In this document: positions 5,183 through 39,803 of the stretch, in pieces | How the letters are laid out: each line of letters opens with the position of its first letter | How positions within the stretch are numbered: the first letter of the stretch is position 1 | Notes under the pieces: model-generated | The model's database searches: none | What the model saw: the letters and a program-made list of their open reading frames with translations, nothing else | Told to the model about the DNA's origin: nothing | Position numbers and translations under genes: made by a program | Source of the DNA: Xanthobacteraceae bacterium | GTDB lineage: Bacteria; Pseudomonadota; Alphaproteobacteria; Rhizobiales; Xanthobacteraceae | NCBI GenBank assembly: GCA_030038995.1 | Contig: JASHQS010000067.1 | Location: forward strand, 1-64,000 | DNA: 64,000 nt | Direction: 5' to 3'

Positions 5183-6217
5183 TTGGGCGCGGAGCGCATT
5201 TTCAGCTGTCGTCGAGGCCCACGCTTGGCGCAGATCGGCGTCATCTATCTTTGTCGGTCCGCCGAAGGCGAGCGCCCGGTCCGCCGTTTCGTGGACAGCT
5301 ATCGCGCGCATCCGGCCGGCCTTGATCACGATCTGCACGTCATATTCAAAGGCTTTTGCAGCGAGGATTCCCGCGCAGCCGCACAGGCGCTCTTTGGCGA
5401 GCTCCCGGTTCATGCCATCGAGCTCGAAGACCGGGGTTATGATATCGGCTCCTATGTCGCCGCCGCGAGGCTTGTCGCCAATCCCCGCCTGATCTTTTTC
5501 AACACGTTCACCGAGCTGCTCGCCGATGACTGGCTGAAAAAGTTCGATGACGCGCTCAGTCTGGCGGGAGTCGGATTGGTCGGCGCCACCGGGTCGTGGC
5601 AGTCGTCCCGGTCGCTGTATGTAGCGGGCTTGCGGAGCGCGCTGCATTCGGTCAGGCATCCATTGGACTATTTGAGTCGGTTGCGAGCAGGCCCTCTGCC
5701 TATCGACGGCGGCCGCGCGGCGCCGAGCATCGGCACGGCTGGCGAGGTGATACGCGCTGACGCACGTCAAATGTGCCGCCGATTTTTCACTGTCCTCTAC
5801 CGCCTCCTTCGTTTCGATCACTACGTCGTCAACCACGCCCGCTATCCGAACCCGCACATTCGTACCAACGCTTTTATGATCGAGAGAGATCGTTTCCTGG
5901 CACTGCGGGCTTCGTCGTTCAGGACGAAATTCGGGGTCTACAAGTTCGAAAGCGGACGGCAATCGCTGACGCAGCAGATCCTGGCGCAAAATCTCAGACC
6001 GGTCGTGGTCGACCGCAATGGTCGTGTTTACGACGTAGCGGACTGGCAATCGTCGTCGACCTACTGCAGCAATCAGCAGGCCAATCTCATCGCCGCCGAC
6101 AACCGCACGCGCGATTATGCCGAGGGAAGCCAGCAGCTGCGGGCTCGCTTGCAGGCGCATGCCTGGGAACATCCGGCGTCCTGGATCGGAGAACACCGGC
6201 CTCCGGTGCAACGCTGA
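5183..6217 (+). CDS. Uncharacterised GT-A/RgpF-like protein (possible glycosyltransferase); true start probably downstream near 5225
   Basis: IGVIYLCRSAEGERPVRRFVDSYRAH...LEDRGYDIGSYVAAARLV...LIFFNTFTELLADDWLKKF; DIGSY recalls DLGSW of RgpF. Confidence 0.55.
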   Translation: MGAERIFSCRRGPRLAQIGVIYLCRSAEGERPVRRFVDSYRAHPAGLDHDLHVIFKGFCSEDSRAAAQALFGELPVHAIELEDRGYDIGSYVAAARLVANPRLIFFNTFTELLADDWLKKFDDALSLAGVGLVGATGSWQSSRSLYVAGLRSALHSVRHPLDYLSRLRAGPLPIDGGRAAPSIGTAGEVIRADARQMCRRFFTVLYRLLRFDHYVVNHARYPNPHIRTNAFMIERDRFLALRASSFRTKFGVYKFESGRQSLTQQILAQNLRPVVVDRNGRVYDVADWQSSSTYCSNQQANLIAADNRTRDYAEGSQQLRARLQAHAWEHPASWIGEHRPPVQR

Positions 6218-6420: not shown

Positions 6421-7224
6421 ATGTTAGCGTTGACCTCGACCCACTTGGATTCCGCTGTCGACGACCTGCGTAACGGCCTTTCTTCCTGGCGGCTCAGTCA
6501 TTTCCTCGCCTGGCAGGACGTCAAGCAAAGATATCGGCGGTCCACGCTGGGCCCGCTATGGATGACGCTGTCCTTCGGCATTCAGATTTTCACGATGGGC
6601 TTTTTGAGCGCCTTTCTGTTCGGCGCCGCACTGGCAAAATCCTTTCCCTACGTCTGCTCCGGCATGCTGCTGTGGGCTCTCATCACGCAGACCATCAACG
6701 ACGGCGCCGGACTGTTCGTCGCCTCCGCTCGTTATATCACGCAGATCAAATGCCCGCTGACCGTATTCCTGGTGCAGACGGTTTGGCGCAATGTCATCAT
6801 CGCCGCTCATAATGTGGTCATCTATGTCGCCATTGCCTTGTTTTTTGTCGTCGTCCCCAGCCGGAGCATGGTGCTGTGGCCGCTCGGCTTGCTTCTGGTC
6901 GTGATCTGCCTGTCGTGGATGGCTCTGGTGGCGGCAGTCATCTCGGCCCGGTATCGCGATGTCCCGTTGATGATTTCCAACATTATCACCGTTCTGTTCT
7001 GGTTGACGCCGCTGATGTATTTTCCCGAGCAACTCGGCAAGAAGCGTTTCATTGCCGACTATAATCCATTCACGCACATGATCGCCCTTGTCCGTGAACC
7101 ATTGTTGGGGGGCACGCCAACGCTGAATGATTGGCTGGTCGTTTTGGCGCTGGCCGTCGTCGGTTGGGTCGGAACCTTTTTGTTCTTCGCCCGCTTCCGC
7201 TCCCGCATCGTCTACTGGCTTTAG
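6421..7224 (+). CDS. Polysaccharide ABC transporter permease (Wzm/ABC2 type)
   Basis: LSHFLAWQDVKQRYRRSTLGPLWMTLSFGIQIFTMGFL...; about six hydrophobic segments; directly followed by a Wzt-like ATPase. Confidence 0.9.
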   Translation: MLALTSTHLDSAVDDLRNGLSSWRLSHFLAWQDVKQRYRRSTLGPLWMTLSFGIQIFTMGFLSAFLFGAALAKSFPYVCSGMLLWALITQTINDGAGLFVASARYITQIKCPLTVFLVQTVWRNVIIAAHNVVIYVAIALFFVVVPSRSMVLWPLGLLLVVICLSWMALVAAVISARYRDVPLMISNIITVLFWLTPLMYFPEQLGKKRFIADYNPFTHMIALVREPLLGGTPTLNDWLVVLALAVVGWVGTFLFFARFRSRIVYWL

Positions 7225-7231
7225 TGCAGCA

Positions 7232-8035
7232 ATGCTGTCGATCATTGGCAAAGACATTCACGTTCAGTTTCCGATCTACGACCCCCGTATGCGGTCGTTG
7301 AAATATTCGCTCGGCATCAAGCATCTTGCCAAAGGTATCAGCCGCGTTACTACGAAAAGCTGGGACGTCGGCGGCCAGATCGGCACCGGCGAAACCGGCA
7401 GGATCGTGGTCAAGGCGCTCGACGGCGTATCCTTTGAGGTGTTCGAGGGCGACCGGGTTGCAATCCTGGGCCGCAATGGTTCCGGCAAAACCACGCTGTT
7501 GCGGACGCTCGCCGGCATTTACGAGCCGGTCAGCGGCGCGATCCAGGCGGTCGGACGCGTGTTTCCGCTGTTCGATCTTCAACTCGGCATGGATCTGGAC
7601 GCGACCGGCATCGAGAATATCTGGTTGCGAGGAAAAATGCTCGGCCTGACGACCAAGCAGATCAGGGACGCGCTCGACGACATTGCCGACTTCACCGAAC
7701 TCGGCGATTACCTCCACATGCCGATCCGCGCTTATTCCACCGGCATGGCGCTGCGTCTGGCGTTTGCAATCTCGACCGCCATCACCCCGGAAATCCTTGT
7801 CCTCGACGAGATGATCGGCGCCGGAGATGACGCTTTTATCGCCAGAGCCGACGCTCGCTTGAAGACCTTTCTGGCAAGAACGGGAATTTTGATCATCGCC
7901 AGTCATAGCACGTCGATGCTGCGTCAGTGGTGCAACAAGGGAATGCTTCTGGAGCATGGCAGGCTGGTTGCCCAGGGGTCGCTCGAGGACGTGGTGTCGG
8001 CATACCAATCCGAGGTGGCGGCCGAGCGGCGATGA
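7232..8035 (+). CDS. Polysaccharide ABC transporter ATP-binding protein (Wzt type, short form)
   Basis: MLSIIGKDIHVQFPIYDPRMRSLKY; Walker A GRNGSGKTTLL, YSTGMALRLAF, Walker B EILVLDEMIGAGD. Confidence 0.92.
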   Translation: MLSIIGKDIHVQFPIYDPRMRSLKYSLGIKHLAKGISRVTTKSWDVGGQIGTGETGRIVVKALDGVSFEVFEGDRVAILGRNGSGKTTLLRTLAGIYEPVSGAIQAVGRVFPLFDLQLGMDLDATGIENIWLRGKMLGLTTKQIRDALDDIADFTELGDYLHMPIRAYSTGMALRLAFAISTAITPEILVLDEMIGAGDDAFIARADARLKTFLARTGILIIASHSTSMLRQWCNKGMLLEHGRLVAQGSLEDVVSAYQSEVAAERR

Positions 8036-8120: not shown

Positions 8121-10007
8121 ATGGCAGAGACCGCGCGGCTGATCATTCCAGTCTGGGGCGAGGCTTACGTCGACAAGGTCCTGTCGATCACGCTCCCGGC
8201 TGCGCTGGCGCCGGGCAATCTGCCGGCGCTCCGCGGCATGTTCGACGTCGAGCTCGCCATTGTCACCGAATCGCGCTTGTTCGACATGGTGCGCAGTTCG
8301 CGCTGCTTCCAGGCCGCCGAGCGAATCTGCAAGACGCGTCTGGTCCCGCTCGACGATCTGTTGACCGGCGTCTTCACCGATTATGGGATGGTGCTCACTT
8401 ACGCGCTGTTCCGCGGCTTTGCCGATCTGGGGCCGCGGCTGACGGAGACCTATCTCCTGCCCTTCATTGCCGACTTCGTCATCAGCGACGGTTCGCTCCG
8501 TCACCTCGGCACATTGATGCAGCAAGGCAAGCGCGTCATCCACGCAGCGAGCTTCCGGGTCGTCGCCGAGGCCATCGACCCGCAGCTCAAGGCCCGCGGC
8601 GATCGCGATTCATGCACCTTGAGCGTGGCGCCGCGCCGGCTGGCGAAGCTTGCCCTCGCCAACTTGCACCCGACGGTGAAAGCTCGCACGATCAATCAGA
8701 AGCTTTGCCATCTGGAATGGATGGACCAGTTTTACTGGTACGTCGATGACGACACATTGATCGGCTATCAGTCGCCGGCGGCGCTTGTCGCCGTCAAGCC
8801 GGAGCGTTTTGTCAGCCGGCCGGTCAGCTTCTGGGATTACGGTTTTCTGCCTGAGGCGGCGCCCGCCGCCGAGCCGCACTTCATCGGCGACTCGGATGAT
8901 TTTTTCATGATCGAGCCGCAAAGCCGCAATACCGGGCAAGAGATGATTCGGATCGGCTGGACGTCGCTTGACGAACTGGCGCGCACCGAGTCGTTGCGCG
9001 CGACCGAGGAACATCGGCGCTCCGCCAAGCAGTTGATAAAGATCCACGCTGCCGATCTGCCGTCGGGTATCGATGGCGTGATCGACGAATCGCGCATCTT
9101 CATGGCCGAACTCTATCGACGCCTGTCGCCGGTGCCGGCGCCGCATATCGGCCATCCGCTTCTCGGCCGCTGGTTCGAGGAGGCCAGCCTGCGCCAACGC
9201 GGCGTGCAAGGCGGCGCCCCATCGCGGCCGAGCCGCCGAGTATCGGCGCACTCCGCCGCGAGCCGCGCGGCCGGCCCAGGCTTGTTGGCGGCTGCGACCA
9301 AGGCCCTGCAAACTCTTTATGGCAAGATGTTCGGCTTGCCGCCAAAGATCGGCAAATTTCATCCGCTGTGGACCGATGTGTCGCCGGTCACCCGGAGAAT
9401 GGCGGCGTGGCAGAGGAATGGCCATGGCAATGTGCTCTGGATGAATTCCGGCAACTGGCGTCTCTTGGCCAACCGGCAGAGTTGTGGCGGTCAGGCATCC
9501 GCTGCCCGCGATCCGTTCTTCAAAGAAGCGCCTTACGACGTCTGCGTTTGCGAGCTGGCGCTGAAGGAAATGGCGGAGCTTGATCGGCTCTATCCGGCGC
9601 TGCGCCCGCTGATGAAAGACGGTGGGCGTGTTCTGTTTAAGATCGCGAAAACCGGAAATGTGTTCGACGGAGCCGAGTTGTTCCTCAGTTGTTGCCAGTT
9701 TCCCGACGTCGACGTTTCACAAATCAATTTCCACGGCGCCGCAATCATCGCGCTGTTGCGGGCGCTTTATGTGCGGGCGATGCGGCCGGTTGCGACGCGT
9801 CCGCTGGCGCGAGGAGCGATCCTGTGCGCCCTCATTTTGCTGGCGCCGTTCGTCCGGCTGGCGAATGCCTGGGCGGCGCGCCGCGATCCGTCGATCTTCT
9901 CGGCGACATGGACAAGCCTGACGGTTGAATTCGCCGTCAAGCGCCGTAGCGCGATTGCGCCGGCCGCCGAGCCGAGCCGAGCCGAAGCGGAAGACGCAGT
10001 GCTATGA
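8121..10007 (+). CDS. Uncharacterised protein: GT-like N-terminal region plus methyltransferase-like C-terminal region (paralog A)
   Basis: Strong colinear similarity to 10004..11851 (ARLIIPVWGE.Y..KV.SITLPA.LAPGNLPAL); C-terminal YDVCVCELALKEMAELDRLYPALRPLMKDGGRVLFKI. Confidence 0.75.
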   Translation: MAETARLIIPVWGEAYVDKVLSITLPAALAPGNLPALRGMFDVELAIVTESRLFDMVRSSRCFQAAERICKTRLVPLDDLLTGVFTDYGMVLTYALFRGFADLGPRLTETYLLPFIADFVISDGSLRHLGTLMQQGKRVIHAASFRVVAEAIDPQLKARGDRDSCTLSVAPRRLAKLALANLHPTVKARTINQKLCHLEWMDQFYWYVDDDTLIGYQSPAALVAVKPERFVSRPVSFWDYGFLPEAAPAAEPHFIGDSDDFFMIEPQSRNTGQEMIRIGWTSLDELARTESLRATEEHRRSAKQLIKIHAADLPSGIDGVIDESRIFMAELYRRLSPVPAPHIGHPLLGRWFEEASLRQRGVQGGAPSRPSRRVSAHSAASRAAGPGLLAAATKALQTLYGKMFGLPPKIGKFHPLWTDVSPVTRRMAAWQRNGHGNVLWMNSGNWRLLANRQSCGGQASAARDPFFKEAPYDVCVCELALKEMAELDRLYPALRPLMKDGGRVLFKIAKTGNVFDGAELFLSCCQFPDVDVSQINFHGAAIIALLRALYVRAMRPVATRPLARGAILCALILLAPFVRLANAWAARRDPSIFSATWTSLTVEFAVKRRSAIAPAAEPSRAEAEDAVL

Positions 10008-11851
10008 AAAAGGCCGCCCGTTTGATCATTCCGGTTTGGGGCGAGCGATACGCCAACAAGGTCGTATCGATTACGCTTCCCGCCGTGCTCGCGCCGGGAA
10101 ACCTGCCGGCGCTGTGCCGGGCGTTCGCGGTCGAGCTGGTGATCGTCACGGAGACGCGGCTGTTCGATCTGTTCCGCGCCGCGCCGGCGTTCGCCGCGGC
10201 GGCGCGAATCTGCGCAACCCGGCTCGTTGCTCTTGACGACTTGCTGACGGATTTTGCCGCCGATTACGGCGTCGCGCTGACGCATGCTCTGTTCCGAGGC
10301 TTTGCCGATCTCGGCGCCGGCATGACCGAGACCTACCTGTTGTTTCTCAACGCCGATTTCATTGTCTGTGACGGCGCACTGGGTTACGTCAGCCGGCTGA
10401 TGCAGGCGGGCGAGCGCGTGATCCATGCGCCGAGCTTTCGCGTCACCGCCGAGGACGTGTTGCCGCAACTAGAGGCTCTGGTCGACGCCGCGTCGTGCAC
10501 GTTGCGACTCGAACCGCGCCGGATGGTCAAGCTGGCACTCGCCAACAAGCATCCCACGGTCAAAGCGCGCACGGTCAACCAACGGCTTTGCCATCAATCA
10601 TGGATGGATCAATTTTATTGGTATGTCGACGAGGATACGCTGATCGGCTATCAATCGCCGGTGGCGTTGGTCGCGATTAAACCGGAACGCGTGGTTGCCG
10701 ATCCCGTTCTGGTATGGGACTTTGGGTTCATTCCGGAAGCGGCGCCGCAGGCGCCGCGGTATTTCATCGGCGATTCCGACCAGTTCTTCATGATCGAGCC
10801 GCAGAGCCGCGACACCGGCCGCGAGATGATTCGGATCGGCTGGACCAGCTACGCGCAAGTCGCCCGCGATTTGTCCTTGTGGCTGACCAAAGAGCAGCGA
10901 GAATCGGGCAAACAGCTGCTGAAATTCCATGCTGCCGATTTGCCGGGCGATATTGATACGGTGATCGAAGAAGCGCGCGCCTATATGGCCGAGATCGACC
11001 GTCGTCTGTCAGCGACACCGGCGCCGCACGTCGATCATCCGCTTATTGGTCGATGGTTCAGGGAGACGACAGCGCGCCGGCGCGCCGCTGCCACGGCGGG
11101 CTCGCGCTGCGAGGCCGCAGCGAAGCCGTTGCTCGACGCGCTGCAAACCATCTATCGCAGCACGTTCGGCTCGCCGCCGCGGGTCAGCCGATTCCATCCG
11201 CTTTGGGCCGACATGTCGCCGATTGCGCGGGCCGTCACGGCCTGGGGCGCCGCCGGCGAGCAAAACATCCTATGGATCAGCTCGACCCCCTCGCTGCTCC
11301 ACAGCAGATTGGGCGGCAAGCGCGCCGATCTAGCCAAGGTTCTCAGCGCCGACTTTGGCGAGGCAATCGAACGAGCGGCGCCTTACGACTCGTGTATTTG
11401 CGATCTGGCCCTCGGTGGGCTCCTCAACATCGACCGGCTCTATGCCAATGTGCGTCCGCTGGTGAAGGATGGCGGCCACATCCTCATCTGCGTCGCGAAG
11501 CGAGGCAAAGTGTTCGAGGGAGCCCATCTGGTCCTGCAGGACCTGGCTTTTCCCAGCGTCGACGTGTCGCAAATTCATTTCTGGGGGGATGCCGCGACCT
11601 GGTTTTTGGCCATGCTGTACCTTCAGGCGTCGCGTTCCCTTCAATCCCTGCCAGTCCTTCGCGCTTTGATCGTCAGCGTCACGCTCCTGTTGCTGGCGCC
11701 AATCGTCCGGCTTGCCAATGCGCGCGCGGCGCGGCGCAATTCGACGATCTTCAGGTCGACATGGACGAGCCTGACGATGCAATTTACGGTAAGGCGCGCG
11801 CAATCGCTCATAGGCAAGAGCCTGGCCGAACTCTCCGCCGCGTTACGCTGA
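10004..11851 (+). CDS. Uncharacterised protein, tandem paralog B of the preceding gene
   Basis: ATGA start/stop overlap with upstream gene; MKKAARLIIPVWGERYANKVVSITLPAVLAPGNLPALCRAFAVELVIVTETRLFDLFR...LLFLNADFIVCDG. Confidence 0.75.
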   Translation: MKKAARLIIPVWGERYANKVVSITLPAVLAPGNLPALCRAFAVELVIVTETRLFDLFRAAPAFAAAARICATRLVALDDLLTDFAADYGVALTHALFRGFADLGAGMTETYLLFLNADFIVCDGALGYVSRLMQAGERVIHAPSFRVTAEDVLPQLEALVDAASCTLRLEPRRMVKLALANKHPTVKARTVNQRLCHQSWMDQFYWYVDEDTLIGYQSPVALVAIKPERVVADPVLVWDFGFIPEAAPQAPRYFIGDSDQFFMIEPQSRDTGREMIRIGWTSYAQVARDLSLWLTKEQRESGKQLLKFHAADLPGDIDTVIEEARAYMAEIDRRLSATPAPHVDHPLIGRWFRETTARRRAAATAGSRCEAAAKPLLDALQTIYRSTFGSPPRVSRFHPLWADMSPIARAVTAWGAAGEQNILWISSTPSLLHSRLGGKRADLAKVLSADFGEAIERAAPYDSCICDLALGGLLNIDRLYANVRPLVKDGGHILICVAKRGKVFEGAHLVLQDLAFPSVDVSQIHFWGDAATWFLAMLYLQASRSLQSLPVLRALIVSVTLLLLAPIVRLANARAARRNSTIFRSTWTSLTMQFTVRRAQSLIGKSLAELSAALR

Positions 11852-11942
11852 CGACAGACGCCATAGCCTTTGTGGCCTATCGACGCGGCGGAAAAGTCCC
11901 TGCTAAAAGGAACGTCCCGGTCGGGTCCATTTGGGAGGTCGC

Positions 11943-12527
11943 GTGAGCCACGCTGCGAAATTCCTCGACGAGGTGTGTGAAACGGCGCGCCGCATCGAGC
12001 CCGACGCCATCGAGGCGCTCTGCGACGAGCTTGCCGGCCTGCGCGAGCGCGAGGGTCGCCTGTTCATCCTTGGCGTTGGCGGCAGCGCCGGCAATTGCAG
12101 CCATGCGGTCAACGACTTTCGCAAGCTGTGCGGCATCGAGGCTTATGCGCCGACCGACAACGTCTCCGAGCTGACGGCGCGGACCAACGACGAAGGCTGG
12201 AGCACGGTGTTCGCGGAATGGCTGAAAGTGAGCCGCGCCGGGTCCAAGGACGCAATCCTGGTGTTTTCCGTCGGCGGCGGCAATCTGGAGAAGAACGTCA
12301 GCGCCAATCTGGTCGCCGCCATCGAGGAGGCCAAAAGCCGCGGCACGCGAATTTTGGGAATTGTCGGACGCGATGGCGGCTATACCAAAAAGTCAGGTGA
12401 CGTAGTCGTCGTCATTCCGGCTGTCGAGCCGTCGCGCATCACGCCACATACCGAGGCGTTCCAGGCCGTCGTCTGGCATTGCCTGGTATCGCACCCGAAA
12501 CTGCAGCACCGTGCCACGAAATGGTGA
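11943..12527 (+). CDS. SIS domain phosphosugar isomerase (GmhA-like)
   Basis: GTG start with upstream GGGAGG; LFILGVGGSAGNCSHAVNDFRKLCGIEAYAPTDNVSELTARTNDEGW. Confidence 0.85.
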   Translation: MSHAAKFLDEVCETARRIEPDAIEALCDELAGLREREGRLFILGVGGSAGNCSHAVNDFRKLCGIEAYAPTDNVSELTARTNDEGWSTVFAEWLKVSRAGSKDAILVFSVGGGNLEKNVSANLVAAIEEAKSRGTRILGIVGRDGGYTKKSGDVVVVIPAVEPSRITPHTEAFQAVVWHCLVSHPKLQHRATKW

Positions 12528-12633: not shown

Positions 12634-13566
12634 ATGCCGATGAGACTGCCATCATGGTTTAAGCGAACAGTGCTGGGCGTTGTGAAGCGCGCCGGATATG
12701 TTCTCATGACGCAACAAATGTTTGCTCACTTGCAGGATACCATTACGGCCTTGCAGCATGCGGTTGCAGCCCCTGGCACGGCAGTCGACTATCAGGTGTT
12801 GACGGATTACGTCGCCAAGCTGCGCAAGTTCGAGGTTACGGATCCTGGCTTCTTCGCGCTGTATGAGCGTGTCAAGCCTTACACGATGACGTCCATCGAG
12901 CGGCTCTATGCCATGCACAAGGCAGTCGAACACGTGGCGCGAGCCGGCGTTCAAGGTGCAATCGTGGAATGCGGCGTATGGCGCGGCGGCAGCATGATGA
13001 TGGCCGCCCTGACGCTGCTGGCGCTTGGCAAAAGCGACCGAGACCTACTTTTGTTCGATACCTTTGCCGGACATCCGCGACCCAATCCCGAGCGCGACTG
13101 CAAGGAGCATTACGAGTTTTGGCTGCAGCGCCGGCGTACCGATCAGTCAAGCTCCTGGGCGGAAGTGGCGCTGGAGGAGGTGCGCGGCAATCTCGCGTCC
13201 ACCGGCTACCCGCTCGACAAGGTAGCTTTTGTCAAAGGCATCGTGCAGGAAACGATACCGGCAAACGCCCCTGAGGCAATCGCGCTGTTGCGCCTTGATA
13301 CCGACTGGTACGACTCAACGGCCCACGAACTGAGCCACCTCTATCCGCGCTTGGTGCCCGGCGGCGTTCTCATTGTCGATGATTATGGCGAGATGCAGGG
13401 ACAGAAACAGGCGGTCGATGAATTTTGCCAGCAGAACGGGGTCGCCCTGTTGCTCAATCGCATTGATCATAGCGGCAGAATCGCGGTCAAATCCATTGAT
13501 CTGCAAGGCCAGAGGCTGATAGCCATGGTAAGCAGCGGTGAGGGCAGCTTCGGTTGCGGACATTGA
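12634..13566 (+). CDS. TylF/MycF-family macrocin O-methyltransferase-like protein
   Basis: GAIVECGVWRGGSMMMAALTLLALG, LLLFDTFAGHPRP, LRLDTDWYDSTAHELSHLYPRLVPGGVLIVDDYG. Confidence 0.9.
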   Translation: MPMRLPSWFKRTVLGVVKRAGYVLMTQQMFAHLQDTITALQHAVAAPGTAVDYQVLTDYVAKLRKFEVTDPGFFALYERVKPYTMTSIERLYAMHKAVEHVARAGVQGAIVECGVWRGGSMMMAALTLLALGKSDRDLLLFDTFAGHPRPNPERDCKEHYEFWLQRRRTDQSSSWAEVALEEVRGNLASTGYPLDKVAFVKGIVQETIPANAPEAIALLRLDTDWYDSTAHELSHLYPRLVPGGVLIVDDYGEMQGQKQAVDEFCQQNGVALLLNRIDHSGRIAVKSIDLQGQRLIAMVSSGEGSFGCGH

Positions 13567-13609: not shown

Positions 13610-14040
13610 ATGGTTCCGAAATTTCTCAAAAGTCCGGTCCAGCGAACGGCCGGGAGTCTGGGCTACGTTGTCCTCCGGCAAAAGGACCTTGAACGACATT
13701 CCGTGCAATTAAGTCGTGAAAAAGCGGATGCGCTCCATTGGCTAGAGGAAGCTATGGATCAGGTTCGTCGCCTCACGATCAAGATTTGAGGAGACGCCAC
13801 CGACCGATTATCAGCGCCTTGTATAACGCCATCAAATATCTTCACCGATCCAGCATTTCCGGCGACATCGTGGAATGCGGCGTATGGCGCGGCAGCAGCA
13901 TGATGATGGCTGCCTTGACGCTGCTTGCGCTTGGCAAAAGCTTTTGTCAAAGGCATCGTGCAGGAAACCTTGCTCGCGAGCGCCGCCGAAGCCATCGCGC
14001 TGTTGCGCCCAACTGCAGAGGTTTAGTATCTTTGCTTGGC
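13610..14040 (+). pseudogene. Decayed TylF-family methyltransferase duplicate
   Basis: DIVECGVWRGSSMMMAALTLLALGKS then an out-of-frame remnant matching FVKGIVQETLLASAAEAIALLR; in-frame stop and an apparent internal deletion relative to 12634..13566. Confidence 0.8.
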
Positions 14041-14328
14041 TCTTCGTCAAGCCAGGGGTGGAAGGCCGCCCGGGGAGATTTCGCTGCCGCTACCGACTTC
14101 AGCTTCATCGAAATTTTAACCGCGAACCAAGGCGGCATTTCGTAACCAATCAAAGCAAGCTTCGGCCAATTCTTCAAGGCGCGGCACTCGGAAGTTACTT
14201 CCGAAATCGTCAAACAACTTCGGCGAGCCCTCCTTGCTGCCCGCGGGCAAGGGCTTTACGAGGAAACAGGACCTTTTTAGCAGGCCTCACATTTGCACAT
14301 TACCGGAAACCGGATACAGTCGTGTGGA

Positions 14329-24061: not shown

Positions 24062-24253
24062 CGATTACTCCACTCGCTCGTCATCACGAGGCGCGACGAA
24101 ATCTTGCATCGGACATCGGCGCCGCAATATAATCCTCATAAATTCCCTTTGGACAGCCTGGCGAACCTGGGGGCTGGCGATGGCGGTCGGCGTAAACAGC
24201 GGTCGCGTTCTTCCGTCGACAGGCGTTCCTCTGCCGGTGATTGCGATTTTGAT

Positions 24254-25558
24254 ATGAGACGCTCCATCAAAGATTGGGTGCGCGGTCTGCTGGGACGGAT
24301 CAAATCAATCGCTGACCCTCTATTCGCGGCGAAGGATGCCAATCGGCAGGCAATGCTGGCGCTACATGCCGAAATAGCTGAAGTCAAGGCCGGCATTTCC
24401 ATGATCCAACAGCAGGTAGTCGAAATACTGACCCAGATCAAAGCCCTGGGCGATGCGCTTGCGACCGTGCCAAGGGAATTTCCCGCAAGCGGCAACAAAG
24501 CTGTACAAAATGCAGCCGCCGCTGACTGGGAGGGTCTATCGGCTGCAGACATCCGCAACGCAGCCAAGCGCTTAAATGAGGCGGCCGCGGGTATTCTAAC
24601 TGCGTTCCCGCCGGGGCCGCTGCCGAGCGTGGCGCGCGTCGCATTTGCCACTCACCTCACGAGATCCGCCGATATGATTTCCAGGTCCTGGCTCGCGCAA
24701 GGTCGGCCAACTGATCTCTTTCCAGATGATGACTTTACCCTCGACTATGCAATACGCAGTGGGGTCTACGCTTCGGACGAGGAGGAGGCGCCCGTCGAGC
24801 CAACTCGACAAACGCTGCCGTGGCGTCATCTCGTTACAGATCCGGATTGTGCCGTTTTCCTAGTGCTGGGCCAGTCCAACGCCGCGAATCATGGCGGTAC
24901 GCGCCACACGGCGGAGGACGCCGCCTATTCGTTCGATTTCTTGCGGATGAATTGTTATCGCGCCGATGATCCACTTCCCGGCGCTTCCGGCAACGGTGGC
25001 AGCGTGTGGTCAAGACTCGGCAGTCGCTTAGTCGAAGCGAAGCTCTTTCGGCGCATCCTCTTCGTGCCGTTGGCATTCGGCGGCACGTTTATCACCGACT
25101 GGACCCCGCATCATAAGAGTCACAAGCGGACGGCGCTGGCGCTCAGCCGGCTGAGAAAGGAACTCGGTATGGGCCCGATGCCGTTCTCGGGCGTGTTCTG
25201 GCAACAAGGCGAAGCGGAGGCCAATCACACTCGGATGTCGGCAGAAGAATACAAAGCGCACTTCCATGACATTGTGCGCGACCTGCGCGCCAATGGCGTT
25301 TTCTCGCCGGTCTTTGTCGCTCTCGCAACGCTATGCGAAGTCAATGCGCATCCGTTTACGAATCATGAGGCTGTTCGCGCGGCGCAATCGTCGCTGCCGG
25401 ATGCGACTGCTGGAATTTTTGCAGGACCGGATGTCGACGGAATCGGCTTGGAAAAAAGATATGACGGCTGTCACCTTGCGAGCAGCGGCTTGGAGGCCTG
25501 CTGCGAGCTGTGGTTTGAGGTTCTCCTGCAACACAAACCGCTTTTGATAAAAGCGTGA
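24254..25558 (+). CDS. Sialate O-acetylesterase-like (SASA/SGNH) carbohydrate esterase domain protein with coiled-coil N-terminus
   Basis: Internal start MRRSIKDWVRG; CAVFLVLGQSNAANHGGTRHT (GQSN) and FSGVFWQQGEAEAN. Confidence 0.7.
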   Translation: MRRSIKDWVRGLLGRIKSIADPLFAAKDANRQAMLALHAEIAEVKAGISMIQQQVVEILTQIKALGDALATVPREFPASGNKAVQNAAAADWEGLSAADIRNAAKRLNEAAAGILTAFPPGPLPSVARVAFATHLTRSADMISRSWLAQGRPTDLFPDDDFTLDYAIRSGVYASDEEEAPVEPTRQTLPWRHLVTDPDCAVFLVLGQSNAANHGGTRHTAEDAAYSFDFLRMNCYRADDPLPGASGNGGSVWSRLGSRLVEAKLFRRILFVPLAFGGTFITDWTPHHKSHKRTALALSRLRKELGMGPMPFSGVFWQQGEAEANHTRMSAEEYKAHFHDIVRDLRANGVFSPVFVALATLCEVNAHPFTNHEAVRAAQSSLPDATAGIFAGPDVDGIGLEKRYDGCHLASSGLEACCELWFEVLLQHKPLLIKA

Positions 25559-38043: not shown

Positions 38044-38889
38044 ATGCATGACATGAGCCGCCGCAACTTCTTCGACGTCGCGGCTGCGCGGTCTCGCTGC
38101 TTGCAATATCGCAAGCGCATCCTGGACATTTCCCAAAATGTGCAGGCGCTGCACATCGGCTCGGCCTATTCGTGCACTGAAATCGTCGACACCATCTATC
38201 ACGGCCTGATGCGCCGCGGTCCGGACGGCACCTCGCCCGACACCTTCCTGATGTCGAAGGGCCACGGCTGCATGATCCTCTACGTGATCCTGGAAGATCT
38301 CGGCGTGCTCGGCCGCGAGGACCTCGACCTCTACTGCAAGCCGAACGGCCGGCTCGGCTGCCACCCCGACTACGGCAATCCGGGCATCGAAGCCTCGACC
38401 GGGGCGCTCGGTCACGGCCTTTCCATGTCGGTCGGCATGGCGCTTGCCGAGCGCGGCCGCAAGACCGGCGGCATCATCTACACCGTGCTGAGCGACGGCG
38501 AGGTGCAGGAGGGCTCGACCTGGGAGGCTCTGCTCATGGCGTCCTCGCTCGGCCTATCCAATCTCGTCGCCTTCGTGGACAACAACGATTTCCAGAGTCT
38601 CGGCCGCACCTCGGAGACGCACCCGACGTTCTATCCGCTGGTGGAAAAATTCCAGGCGTTTGGCTGGGAAACCGTCGAAGTCGACGGCCATGATGCCGCC
38701 GCGGTGTTTGCCGCCGTGAGCGGGCGTCAAGGCGGGCGGCCCTTCATGCTGGTCGGCAAGACCACCAAGGGCAAAGGCATCAGCTACATGGAGAACGTGC
38801 CGATCTGGCATTATCGCTCGCCGAGCCCGAAGGAGTACGAGCAGGGCAGGCGGGAATTGGAGGCCGCGGCGGCCACGGCGGTGTCATGA
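38044..38889 (+). CDS. Transketolase, N-terminal (TPP-binding) subunit
   Basis: LMSKGHGCMILYVILEDLGVL, GSTGALGHGLSMSVGMALAERGR-type motif, SDGEVQEGSTWEALLMASSLGLSNLVAFVDNNDFQ. Confidence 0.92.
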   Translation: MHDMSRRNFFDVAAARSRCLQYRKRILDISQNVQALHIGSAYSCTEIVDTIYHGLMRRGPDGTSPDTFLMSKGHGCMILYVILEDLGVLGREDLDLYCKPNGRLGCHPDYGNPGIEASTGALGHGLSMSVGMALAERGRKTGGIIYTVLSDGEVQEGSTWEALLMASSLGLSNLVAFVDNNDFQSLGRTSETHPTFYPLVEKFQAFGWETVEVDGHDAAAVFAAVSGRQGGRPFMLVGKTTKGKGISYMENVPIWHYRSPSPKEYEQGRRELEAAAATAVS

Positions 38890-39803
38890 GAAACACGTTT
38901 TCGGAGGCGCTGTACAAGGCGGCCACCGCCAATCCGGACATCTACATCGTCGTTGCCGACATTTCGCCGGCCGGCAGCATGGCCAAGTTCCGCGACCAAT
39001 ATCCGGATCGCTTCATCAATGTCGGCGTCGCCGAGCAGAGCATGATCGGCATCTGCGCCGGACTCGCGCTCAAGGGCTGCCAGCCGTTCGCCTACACCAT
39101 CGCCACGTTCTCGCTGTACCGGCCGTTCGAAATGGTGCGCGACGACCTGTGCTATCAAAATCTGCCGGTGACGGTGGTCGGCATGGGCGCCGGCGTGATC
39201 TATTCGACGCTCGGCGGCACGCATCACACCCAGGAGGACATCGCCATCGCCGGGGCGCTGCCCAACATGCAGATCATCGCACCGTGCGATCCCGCCGAGT
39301 GTACCGAGGCGACCGCCTATTGCGCGATGCAAAAGAACGGGCCGGTCTATCTGCGGCTCGGCAAGGCCGGCGAGCCCAACTTCACCGACAAGGCGGTCGA
39401 TCCGTGGATGTTCGGCAAGCTGCGCTACATCAAGCGTGGCACCGACGTCTGCATCCTGACCTACGGCGTCATCATGGCCAAGGCGATGCAGCTTGCCGCG
39501 CGGTTCGAGGCCAAAGGACGATCGGTGTCGGTCGTGTCCTGCCATACCTTGAAGCCGCTCGACGTCGACGGCATCCGCGACGCGTTGCGGCGGCACAATC
39601 ACGTCGTCGCCGTCGAGGAGCATGCCCCGCAGGGCGGCCTGGCGCCGCGCATCAAACAAATCGCCTGGGACATGCAGGCGCGTTGCCGGCTGGACACGTT
39701 CACACTGCAGGACGCGTTCATCCACAATTACGGCAGCCACGACGATTTGTTGGCGGCGCACGGCCTGGAAGTCGGCGCCATCGCGGCTCAGGTTGGCGCC
39801 TGA
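38886..39803 (+). CDS. Transketolase, C-terminal subunit
   Basis: RNTFSEALYKAATANPDIYIVVADISPAGSMAKFRDQYPDRFINVGVAEQSMIGICAGLALKG; overlaps preceding subunit by 4 bp. Confidence 0.92.
   Translation: MRNTFSEALYKAATANPDIYIVVADISPAGSMAKFRDQYPDRFINVGVAEQSMIGICAGLALKGCQPFAYTIATFSLYRPFEMVRDDLCYQNLPVTVVGMGAGVIYSTLGGTHHTQEDIAIAGALPNMQIIAPCDPAECTEATAYCAMQKNGPVYLRLGKAGEPNFTDKAVDPWMFGKLRYIKRGTDVCILTYGVIMAKAMQLAARFEAKGRSVSVVSCHTLKPLDVDGIRDALRRHNHVVAVEEHAPQGGLAPRIKQIAWDMQARCRLDTFTLQDAFIHNYGSHDDLLAAHGLEVGAIAAQVGA

Follow-up and report, generated by a model that had tools for sequence, protein, structure and literature searches.

Multi-module polymerases encoded beside Wzm/Wzt exporters are already known. 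WbbM combines a GT111 and a GT8 glycosyltransferase (GT) module (PMC12269835), and in Klebsiella O7 and O12 several modules are joined in one chain (PMC11231755). Within surface-polysaccharide loci, glycosyltransferases are the genes that are hardest to assign. Here we describe two tandem genes, A and B, located directly behind a Wzm/Wzt exporter in a contig from a Xanthobacteraceae bacterium (GCA_030038995.1, JASHQS010000067.1, positions 1 to 64,000 of the forward strand; this whole 64,000-nucleotide stretch is referred to as the window). We consider it probable that the two products are paralogous, membrane-associated cytoplasmic glycosyltransferases of an O-antigen or capsule pathway dependent on an ATP-binding cassette (ABC) transporter, and that each uses a degenerate methyltransferase-like domain as a scaffold.

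The gene structure was exactly as given in a preliminary description of this DNA: the 3' end of A and the start of B share the ATGA at 10004-10007, and the exporter genes lie directly upstream, with Wzt ending 85 bp before A (coordinates in Table 1). The two proteins had also been called colinear, and end-to-end alignment extended this over their whole length, with 57% identity and 70% positives across 620 columns. The motifs quoted at that time, including a conserved middle block and a C-terminal pattern, were found in A and B. Orthologues of A in two other genomes were 76-78% identical to it, and B showed ~83% identity to a full-length orthologue. Divergence between A and B is greater than that between either protein and its orthologues, indicating that the A-B split predates the split of these relatives. 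The ratio of nonsynonymous to synonymous substitution rates (dN/dS) against orthologues was ~0.2-0.26 for both genes, and both are therefore coding sequence under purifying selection.

The tandem is real, but it is not alone, since a third paralogue lies further along the window. Its N-terminal part was 39% identical to that of B and its C-terminal part 26-30%. A profile search of the genome (assembly ~91% complete) found no copies beyond A, B and this third paralogue. That the pair might be unique to this locus was ruled out by the third copy and by module genes in other genomes.

The family is properly defined by its N-terminal module of ~340 amino acids (aa), not by the A/B pair. Searches used a 13-row profile of residues 1-345; sampling was uneven, and every count includes the window's own genome. 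Genomes with the module numbered 19 of 300 in the same family, 4 of 298 in the order sample, 26 of 387 in the same class and 2 of 299 in the phylum sample. Its place within the protein varies, one protein carries two copies, short members such as one of 407 aa in L014 stand alone, and its partner domains include tetratricopeptide repeats (TPR), TylF, HAD hydrolase, fasciclin and a canonical methyltransferase. Outside the phylum a relative was seen on plasmid pDCAR1 of Solidesulfovibrio carbinolicus, where two hypothetical proteins with the module flank a TIGR04372 glycosyltransferase. Plasmid and phage collections yielded no other relative of the module, and scans of viral contigs with two family members as queries gave no match.

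A separate observation concerns the window open reading frame (ORF) at 24104-25558 (+), which encodes 484 aa with a C-terminal SASA carbohydrate-esterase domain (PF03629). A protein of 705 aa from a sister genome (L021:1417-3531) joins the N-terminal module to a C-terminal part of similar appearance. The comparison suggests domain shuffling among these clusters.

Five residues, W12, G13, N33, D118 and H183 (B numbering), were invariant in an alignment of 56 members. G136, W206, D257 and S258 were nearly invariant, D259 was present in 49/56 and H309 in 40/56. D118 belongs to an acidic segment to which the preliminary description had drawn attention, LNADF in B and FIADF in A. The segment is present, but the Asn-to-Ile change at position 116 of A is uninformative, as this position varies across the family (N in 20/56, P in 11/56, I in 4/56). 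Inactivity of A owing to Ile at 116 was ruled out on the same ground.

Neither protein matched Pfam at E<=1, and NCBIfam returned a single irrelevant sub-threshold match, for A only. No Pfam or NCBIfam family covers A or B and no full-length Pfam match was found, in agreement with the initial view that they belong to no named family. A PDB sequence search with B and N-module profiles likewise gave no significant match to the N module. Weak GT2 (PF00535) matches were seen in 6 of the 56 members (best 7e-4), none of them above the curated cut-off. When the N-module profile was compared with 20 GT2 sequences of the same genome, the match was weak (probability 13%, E 0.002), with D118 falling in the DXD region; scores were lower still for column-reversed decoys and for a set of methyltransferases.

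An AlphaFold model of B was built from eight sequences. Its mean predicted local distance difference test score (pLDDT) was 50, with residues 1-80 at ~80-95 and the first ~180 residues ordered, and its first ~140 residues followed the b-a-b-a-b-a-b order of strands and helices expected of GT-A. Foldseek matched the model in the PDB mainly to GT-A glycosyltransferases, the best being the chondroitin polymerase K4CP (6.4e-4), with LARGE1, GlfT2, COLGALT1, UGGT and PcManGT among the other top matches. These results give moderate support, short of proof, to a GT-A-like fold for the N module, in line with the GT-like N-terminus first proposed for the pair. In a viral structure library the same model matched several annotated glycosyltransferases, including GT8 and GT2 proteins. 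It also aligned over almost the full length of an unnamed 342-aa protein of an uncultured Caudovirales phage (BFVD A0A6J5PWU5, E 6.5e-12). This modelled match suggests that the module has phage relatives and that viruses may carry it as a stand-alone protein.

The second half of A and B had been likened to a Rossmann methyltransferase, and the likeness held for shape but not for the cofactor site. A 21-row profile of the C domain, searched against PDB sequences, had as its ten best matches methyltransferases and, in a single case, a protein named only 'hypothetical', with UbiG in the lead (E 0.008). Profile-profile comparison (hhalign) with a methyltransferase set gave a probability of 82% and E 1.1e-5, the aligned stretch being confined to strands 4 to 5; comparison with GT2 or reversed profiles gave nothing. 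The glycine-rich S-adenosylmethionine (SAM) motif I at strand 1, defined as E/DxGxGxG (PMC11231755), was intact in no aligned C domain; the strand-1 loop reads VLWMNSG in A and ILWISS in B, and one or the other in close relatives. Judged by sequence, the C domain is probably methyltransferase-like in shape and not a methyltransferase in function. The hydrophobic segment reported at the C-terminus is real, with 19-residue Kyte-Doolittle means of 2.26 in B (from residue 550) and 1.97 in A (from residue 562), but it is not terminal: a conserved strand, WTSLTxEFxV, follows it, and the segment is therefore internal to the domain rather than a tail. Across 61 related genomes the C domain occurred within proteins of the A/B family and as fragments near family genes; only two matches lay elsewhere, both marginal (E ~7e-4 to 8e-4).

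To place the module in its genomic context, the surroundings of module genes in other genomes were read in 30 neighbourhoods of 12-20 kb. Wzm was present in 13 of them and at least two module genes in 10, and many contained GT2, methyltransferase, epimerase, HldE-like, SIS or transketolase genes. When the genomes were searched for Wzm, 24 of 26 had between one and three homologues. With the window's own genome left out, 20 of 25 had a module gene no more than 21 kb from a Wzm homologue, compared to a chance expectation of ~0.3 genomes with one module locus per genome and 0.8 with three. The linked set includes G265, G617, G765 and G956, where contig size cannot explain the linkage because these are single-contig genomes. 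The link to the exporter is not absolute, since G084, G883, G890, G990 and G1060 showed none.

The analysis shows the structure of the genes, their homology and conservation, their linkage to the exporter and a partial resemblance in fold; catalysis, metal, donor, acceptor, a division of labour and a membrane role we infer as follows. The N module would adopt a Rossmann fold of GT-A type and bind a nucleotide sugar, with the probable help of a divalent metal, at a site formed by D118 of the xxD...DG segment and perhaps by the D257-S-D259 motif and H309. The sugar would be passed to a lipid-linked glycan on the cytoplasmic side of the inner membrane. The C domain, methyltransferase-shaped with its SAM loop lost, would together with the hydrophobic helix anchor the enzyme near acceptor and exporter. 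A and B might each add one kind of sugar, the tandem copies suggesting two linkages in one repeat, and the finished chain would be exported by Wzm/Wzt.

Several observations weigh against a transferase role. The N module has no significant sequence match to any GT family or PDB chain, the model is of low confidence past about residue 180, the region of H183, W206 and D257-259, and an N-only structure model was poorer than the full-length one. The genomic linkage speaks for a pathway and not for a chemistry, and the Foldseek E-values near 1e-3 are marginal. The GT-A-like nucleotidyltransferases IspD and GMPPA were also among the matches; further, the first Asp of the DXD motif is not conserved, whereas the unusual set W12, G13, N33, H183 and D257-S-D259 is. 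Along with the HAD hydrolase and fasciclin partner domains, these last points would suit a nucleotide-sugar-binding nucleotidyltransferase, mutase or phosphotransferase of GT-A-like fold that modifies the glycan or a precursor without sugar transfer. We regard this as unlikely, as most top structural matches are glycosyltransferases, and tandem or multiple copies (the 10 of 30 neighbourhoods above) and the chain with two modules are more in keeping with polymerising transferases than with enzymes acting on precursors.

Somewhat less likely again appears a bifunctional protein with two catalytic domains, in which sugar transfer by the N module is joined by a C domain that is either a methyltransferase still able to bind SAM through a diverged loop or a second transferase of an unusual kind. 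It would fit the similarity to UbiG-type methyltransferases, the VGTSSGTG found at the strand-1 loop of one divergent member (L066), the common fusion of modules in ABC-type O-antigen systems and the methyltransferase-like sheet described for the GT137 transferase ORF7-O4 (both PMC11231755). However, an intact GxGxG occurs in no member, and the only invariant column of the C domain is a Leu (aa 423 of B), with no invariant polar residue. It is very improbable that A has degenerated into a pseudoenzyme that partners B just for assembly: FIADF in place of LNADF could point that way, but position 116 is variable, A retains all five invariant residues, and purifying selection acts on A as on B.

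If the glycosyltransferase assignment holds, the N module may, tentatively, represent a new GT family with an unusual active site, in which a single invariant Asp, H183 and the DSD motif replace DXD. It would then be a building block exchanged among many ABC-exported polysaccharides of alphaproteobacteria, and its fusion partner at this locus would be a pseudoenzyme that arose from a methyltransferase and became a membrane scaffold. The difference from known systems lies in an N module outside Pfam and NCBIfam combined with a methyltransferase-like C domain that lacks the SAM loop, though the module could correspond to a numbered CAZy family that has no Pfam model. An unnamed, recombined, Wzm/Wzt-linked module in ~6-7% of sampled genomes (family and class) would account for missing transferases in many alphaproteobacterial O-antigen and capsule clusters. 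The residues W12, G13, N33, D118 and H183 offer a concrete target for assigning such a family, and the C domain would exemplify an enzyme fold reused as a scaffold.

Table 1. Genes and domains of the A/B locus and of the third paralogue in the window (MAG, metagenome-assembled genome).
Feature	Position	Strand	Details and evidence
344-aa protein preceding Wzm, conserved neighbour	5183-6217	+	homologue upstream of Wzm in the related MAG L006
Wzm, ABC-2 permease of polysaccharide exporter	6421-7224	+	PF01061 (ABC2_membrane) 6e-11; NF050109 galactan Wzm 1.3e-68
Wzt, exporter ATPase, short form	7127-8035	+	PF00005 (ABC_tran) 1.6e-17; NF050108 galactan Wzt 3.7e-81
ORF A	8121-10007	+	628 aa; N-terminal module and methyltransferase-like C domain
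ORF B	10004-11851	+	615 aa; architecture as A
N-terminal module of B (aa 1-345), predicted GT-A-like domain	10004-11038	+	56-member alignment, model, Foldseek
C-terminal domain of B (aa 373-605), methyltransferase-like Rossmann domain	11120-11818	+	no intact GxGxG loop; hydrophobic helix ~aa 550-570
SIS-domain, GmhA-like sugar-phosphate isomerase	11931-12527	+	PF13580 2.4e-8; TIGR00441 5e-14, under cut-off
TylF-type methyltransferase, conserved neighbour downstream	12634-13566	+	PF05711 1.4e-50
Third paralogue, 808 aa	49899-52325	+	N module and C domain parted by ~200-aa insert; family profile and BLAST

The scores of Wzm and Wzt against the galactan-export models were both under the NCBIfam equivalog cut-offs. 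The true start of Wzt is likely an internal ATG near 7232. A short Wzt is compatible with export without a recognised cap, as for galactan systems. Gene order was shared with related Xanthobacteraceae MAGs: L005 reads Wzm-Wzt-A-B-SIS-TylF, L006 has a homologue of the 344-aa protein followed by Wzm-Wzt-A-B, and L007 has B-SIS-TylF, so that the position of the SIS gene behind B is kept in relatives. Between B and the SIS gene of L005, a fragment like the C-terminal end of B (L005:6925-7248) is likely the relic of a third tandem copy. The 344-aa protein had no match in Pfam or NCBIfam and is a further candidate for an unnamed glycan enzyme. Immediately downstream of the TylF gene, a short ORF at 13738-14145 (+), which reads SGDIVECGVWRGSSMMMAALTLLALGKS, resembles that gene and is probably a broken second copy.

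Precursor genes in the window include a glucose-1-phosphate cytidylyltransferase (TIGR02623, above cut-off), an HldE-like gene, a split transketolase, a transaldolase and aminotransferases. By their sequence they point to unusual sugars, possibly linked to cytidine diphosphate or derived from heptose, and they do not fix the donor. Between 29695 and 41080 (+), a run of genes for transaldolase, epimerases, HldE-like kinase/adenylyltransferase, nucleoside-diphosphate-sugar dehydrogenase, transketolase halves and aminotransferase resembles a pathway to an unusual nucleotide-activated sugar. The transketolase is encoded within this polysaccharide region as two adjacent genes (281 and 305 aa; 38044-39803, +), and a split pair was also seen near module genes in several relatives.

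Among known systems, the GT-A glycan polymerases GlfT2 and K4CP resemble the N-terminal part of B as top Foldseek matches. They differ in that TM-scores were low (~0.15 of the query) because the model of B is partial, in that there is no sequence similarity, and in that A and B lack a classical DXD. The two hypothetical S. carbinolicus proteins (WP_129356123.1 and WP_165352188.1) share the N module and a setting in a glycan gene cluster; there, however, TPR-like repeats come first and the module forms the C-terminal part, a methyltransferase-like C domain was not seen, and identity to related modules is only ~25%. ORF7 of Klebsiella pneumoniae O4, a GT137 transferase of 3-deoxy-D-manno-oct-2-ulosonic acid (Kdo) (PMC11231755), is a glycan enzyme whose modelled sheet is methyltransferase-like. 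Likened to A and B by description only, it is a warning that their C domain could itself be a transferase. In K. pneumoniae O7, ORF6 consists of a methyltransferase-kinase terminator, a coiled coil and two GT2 modules (PMC11231755). Similar to A and B, it unites modules of methyltransferase and GT type in a single chain encoded next to Wzm/Wzt, and a long insert likewise separates the two domains of the third paralogue. In contrast to ORF6, the order is reversed at this locus, no kinase was found, the SAM motif is missing, Wzt has a short form and the GT module cannot be recognised as GT2.

WbbM of K. pneumoniae O2a, with an N-terminal GT111/DUF4422 and a C-terminal GT8 domain, is the polymerase of an ABC-transporter-dependent O-antigen (PMC12269835, PMC11231755). 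A and B differ from it in having no Pfam match, DUF4422 and GT8 included, in a second half that is methyltransferase-like and not a GT, and in being two paralogous genes instead of one. WbbM is a two-domain, cytoplasmic protein, as A and B probably are, and the exporter encoded beside A and B is also closest to the galactan Wzm/Wzt models.

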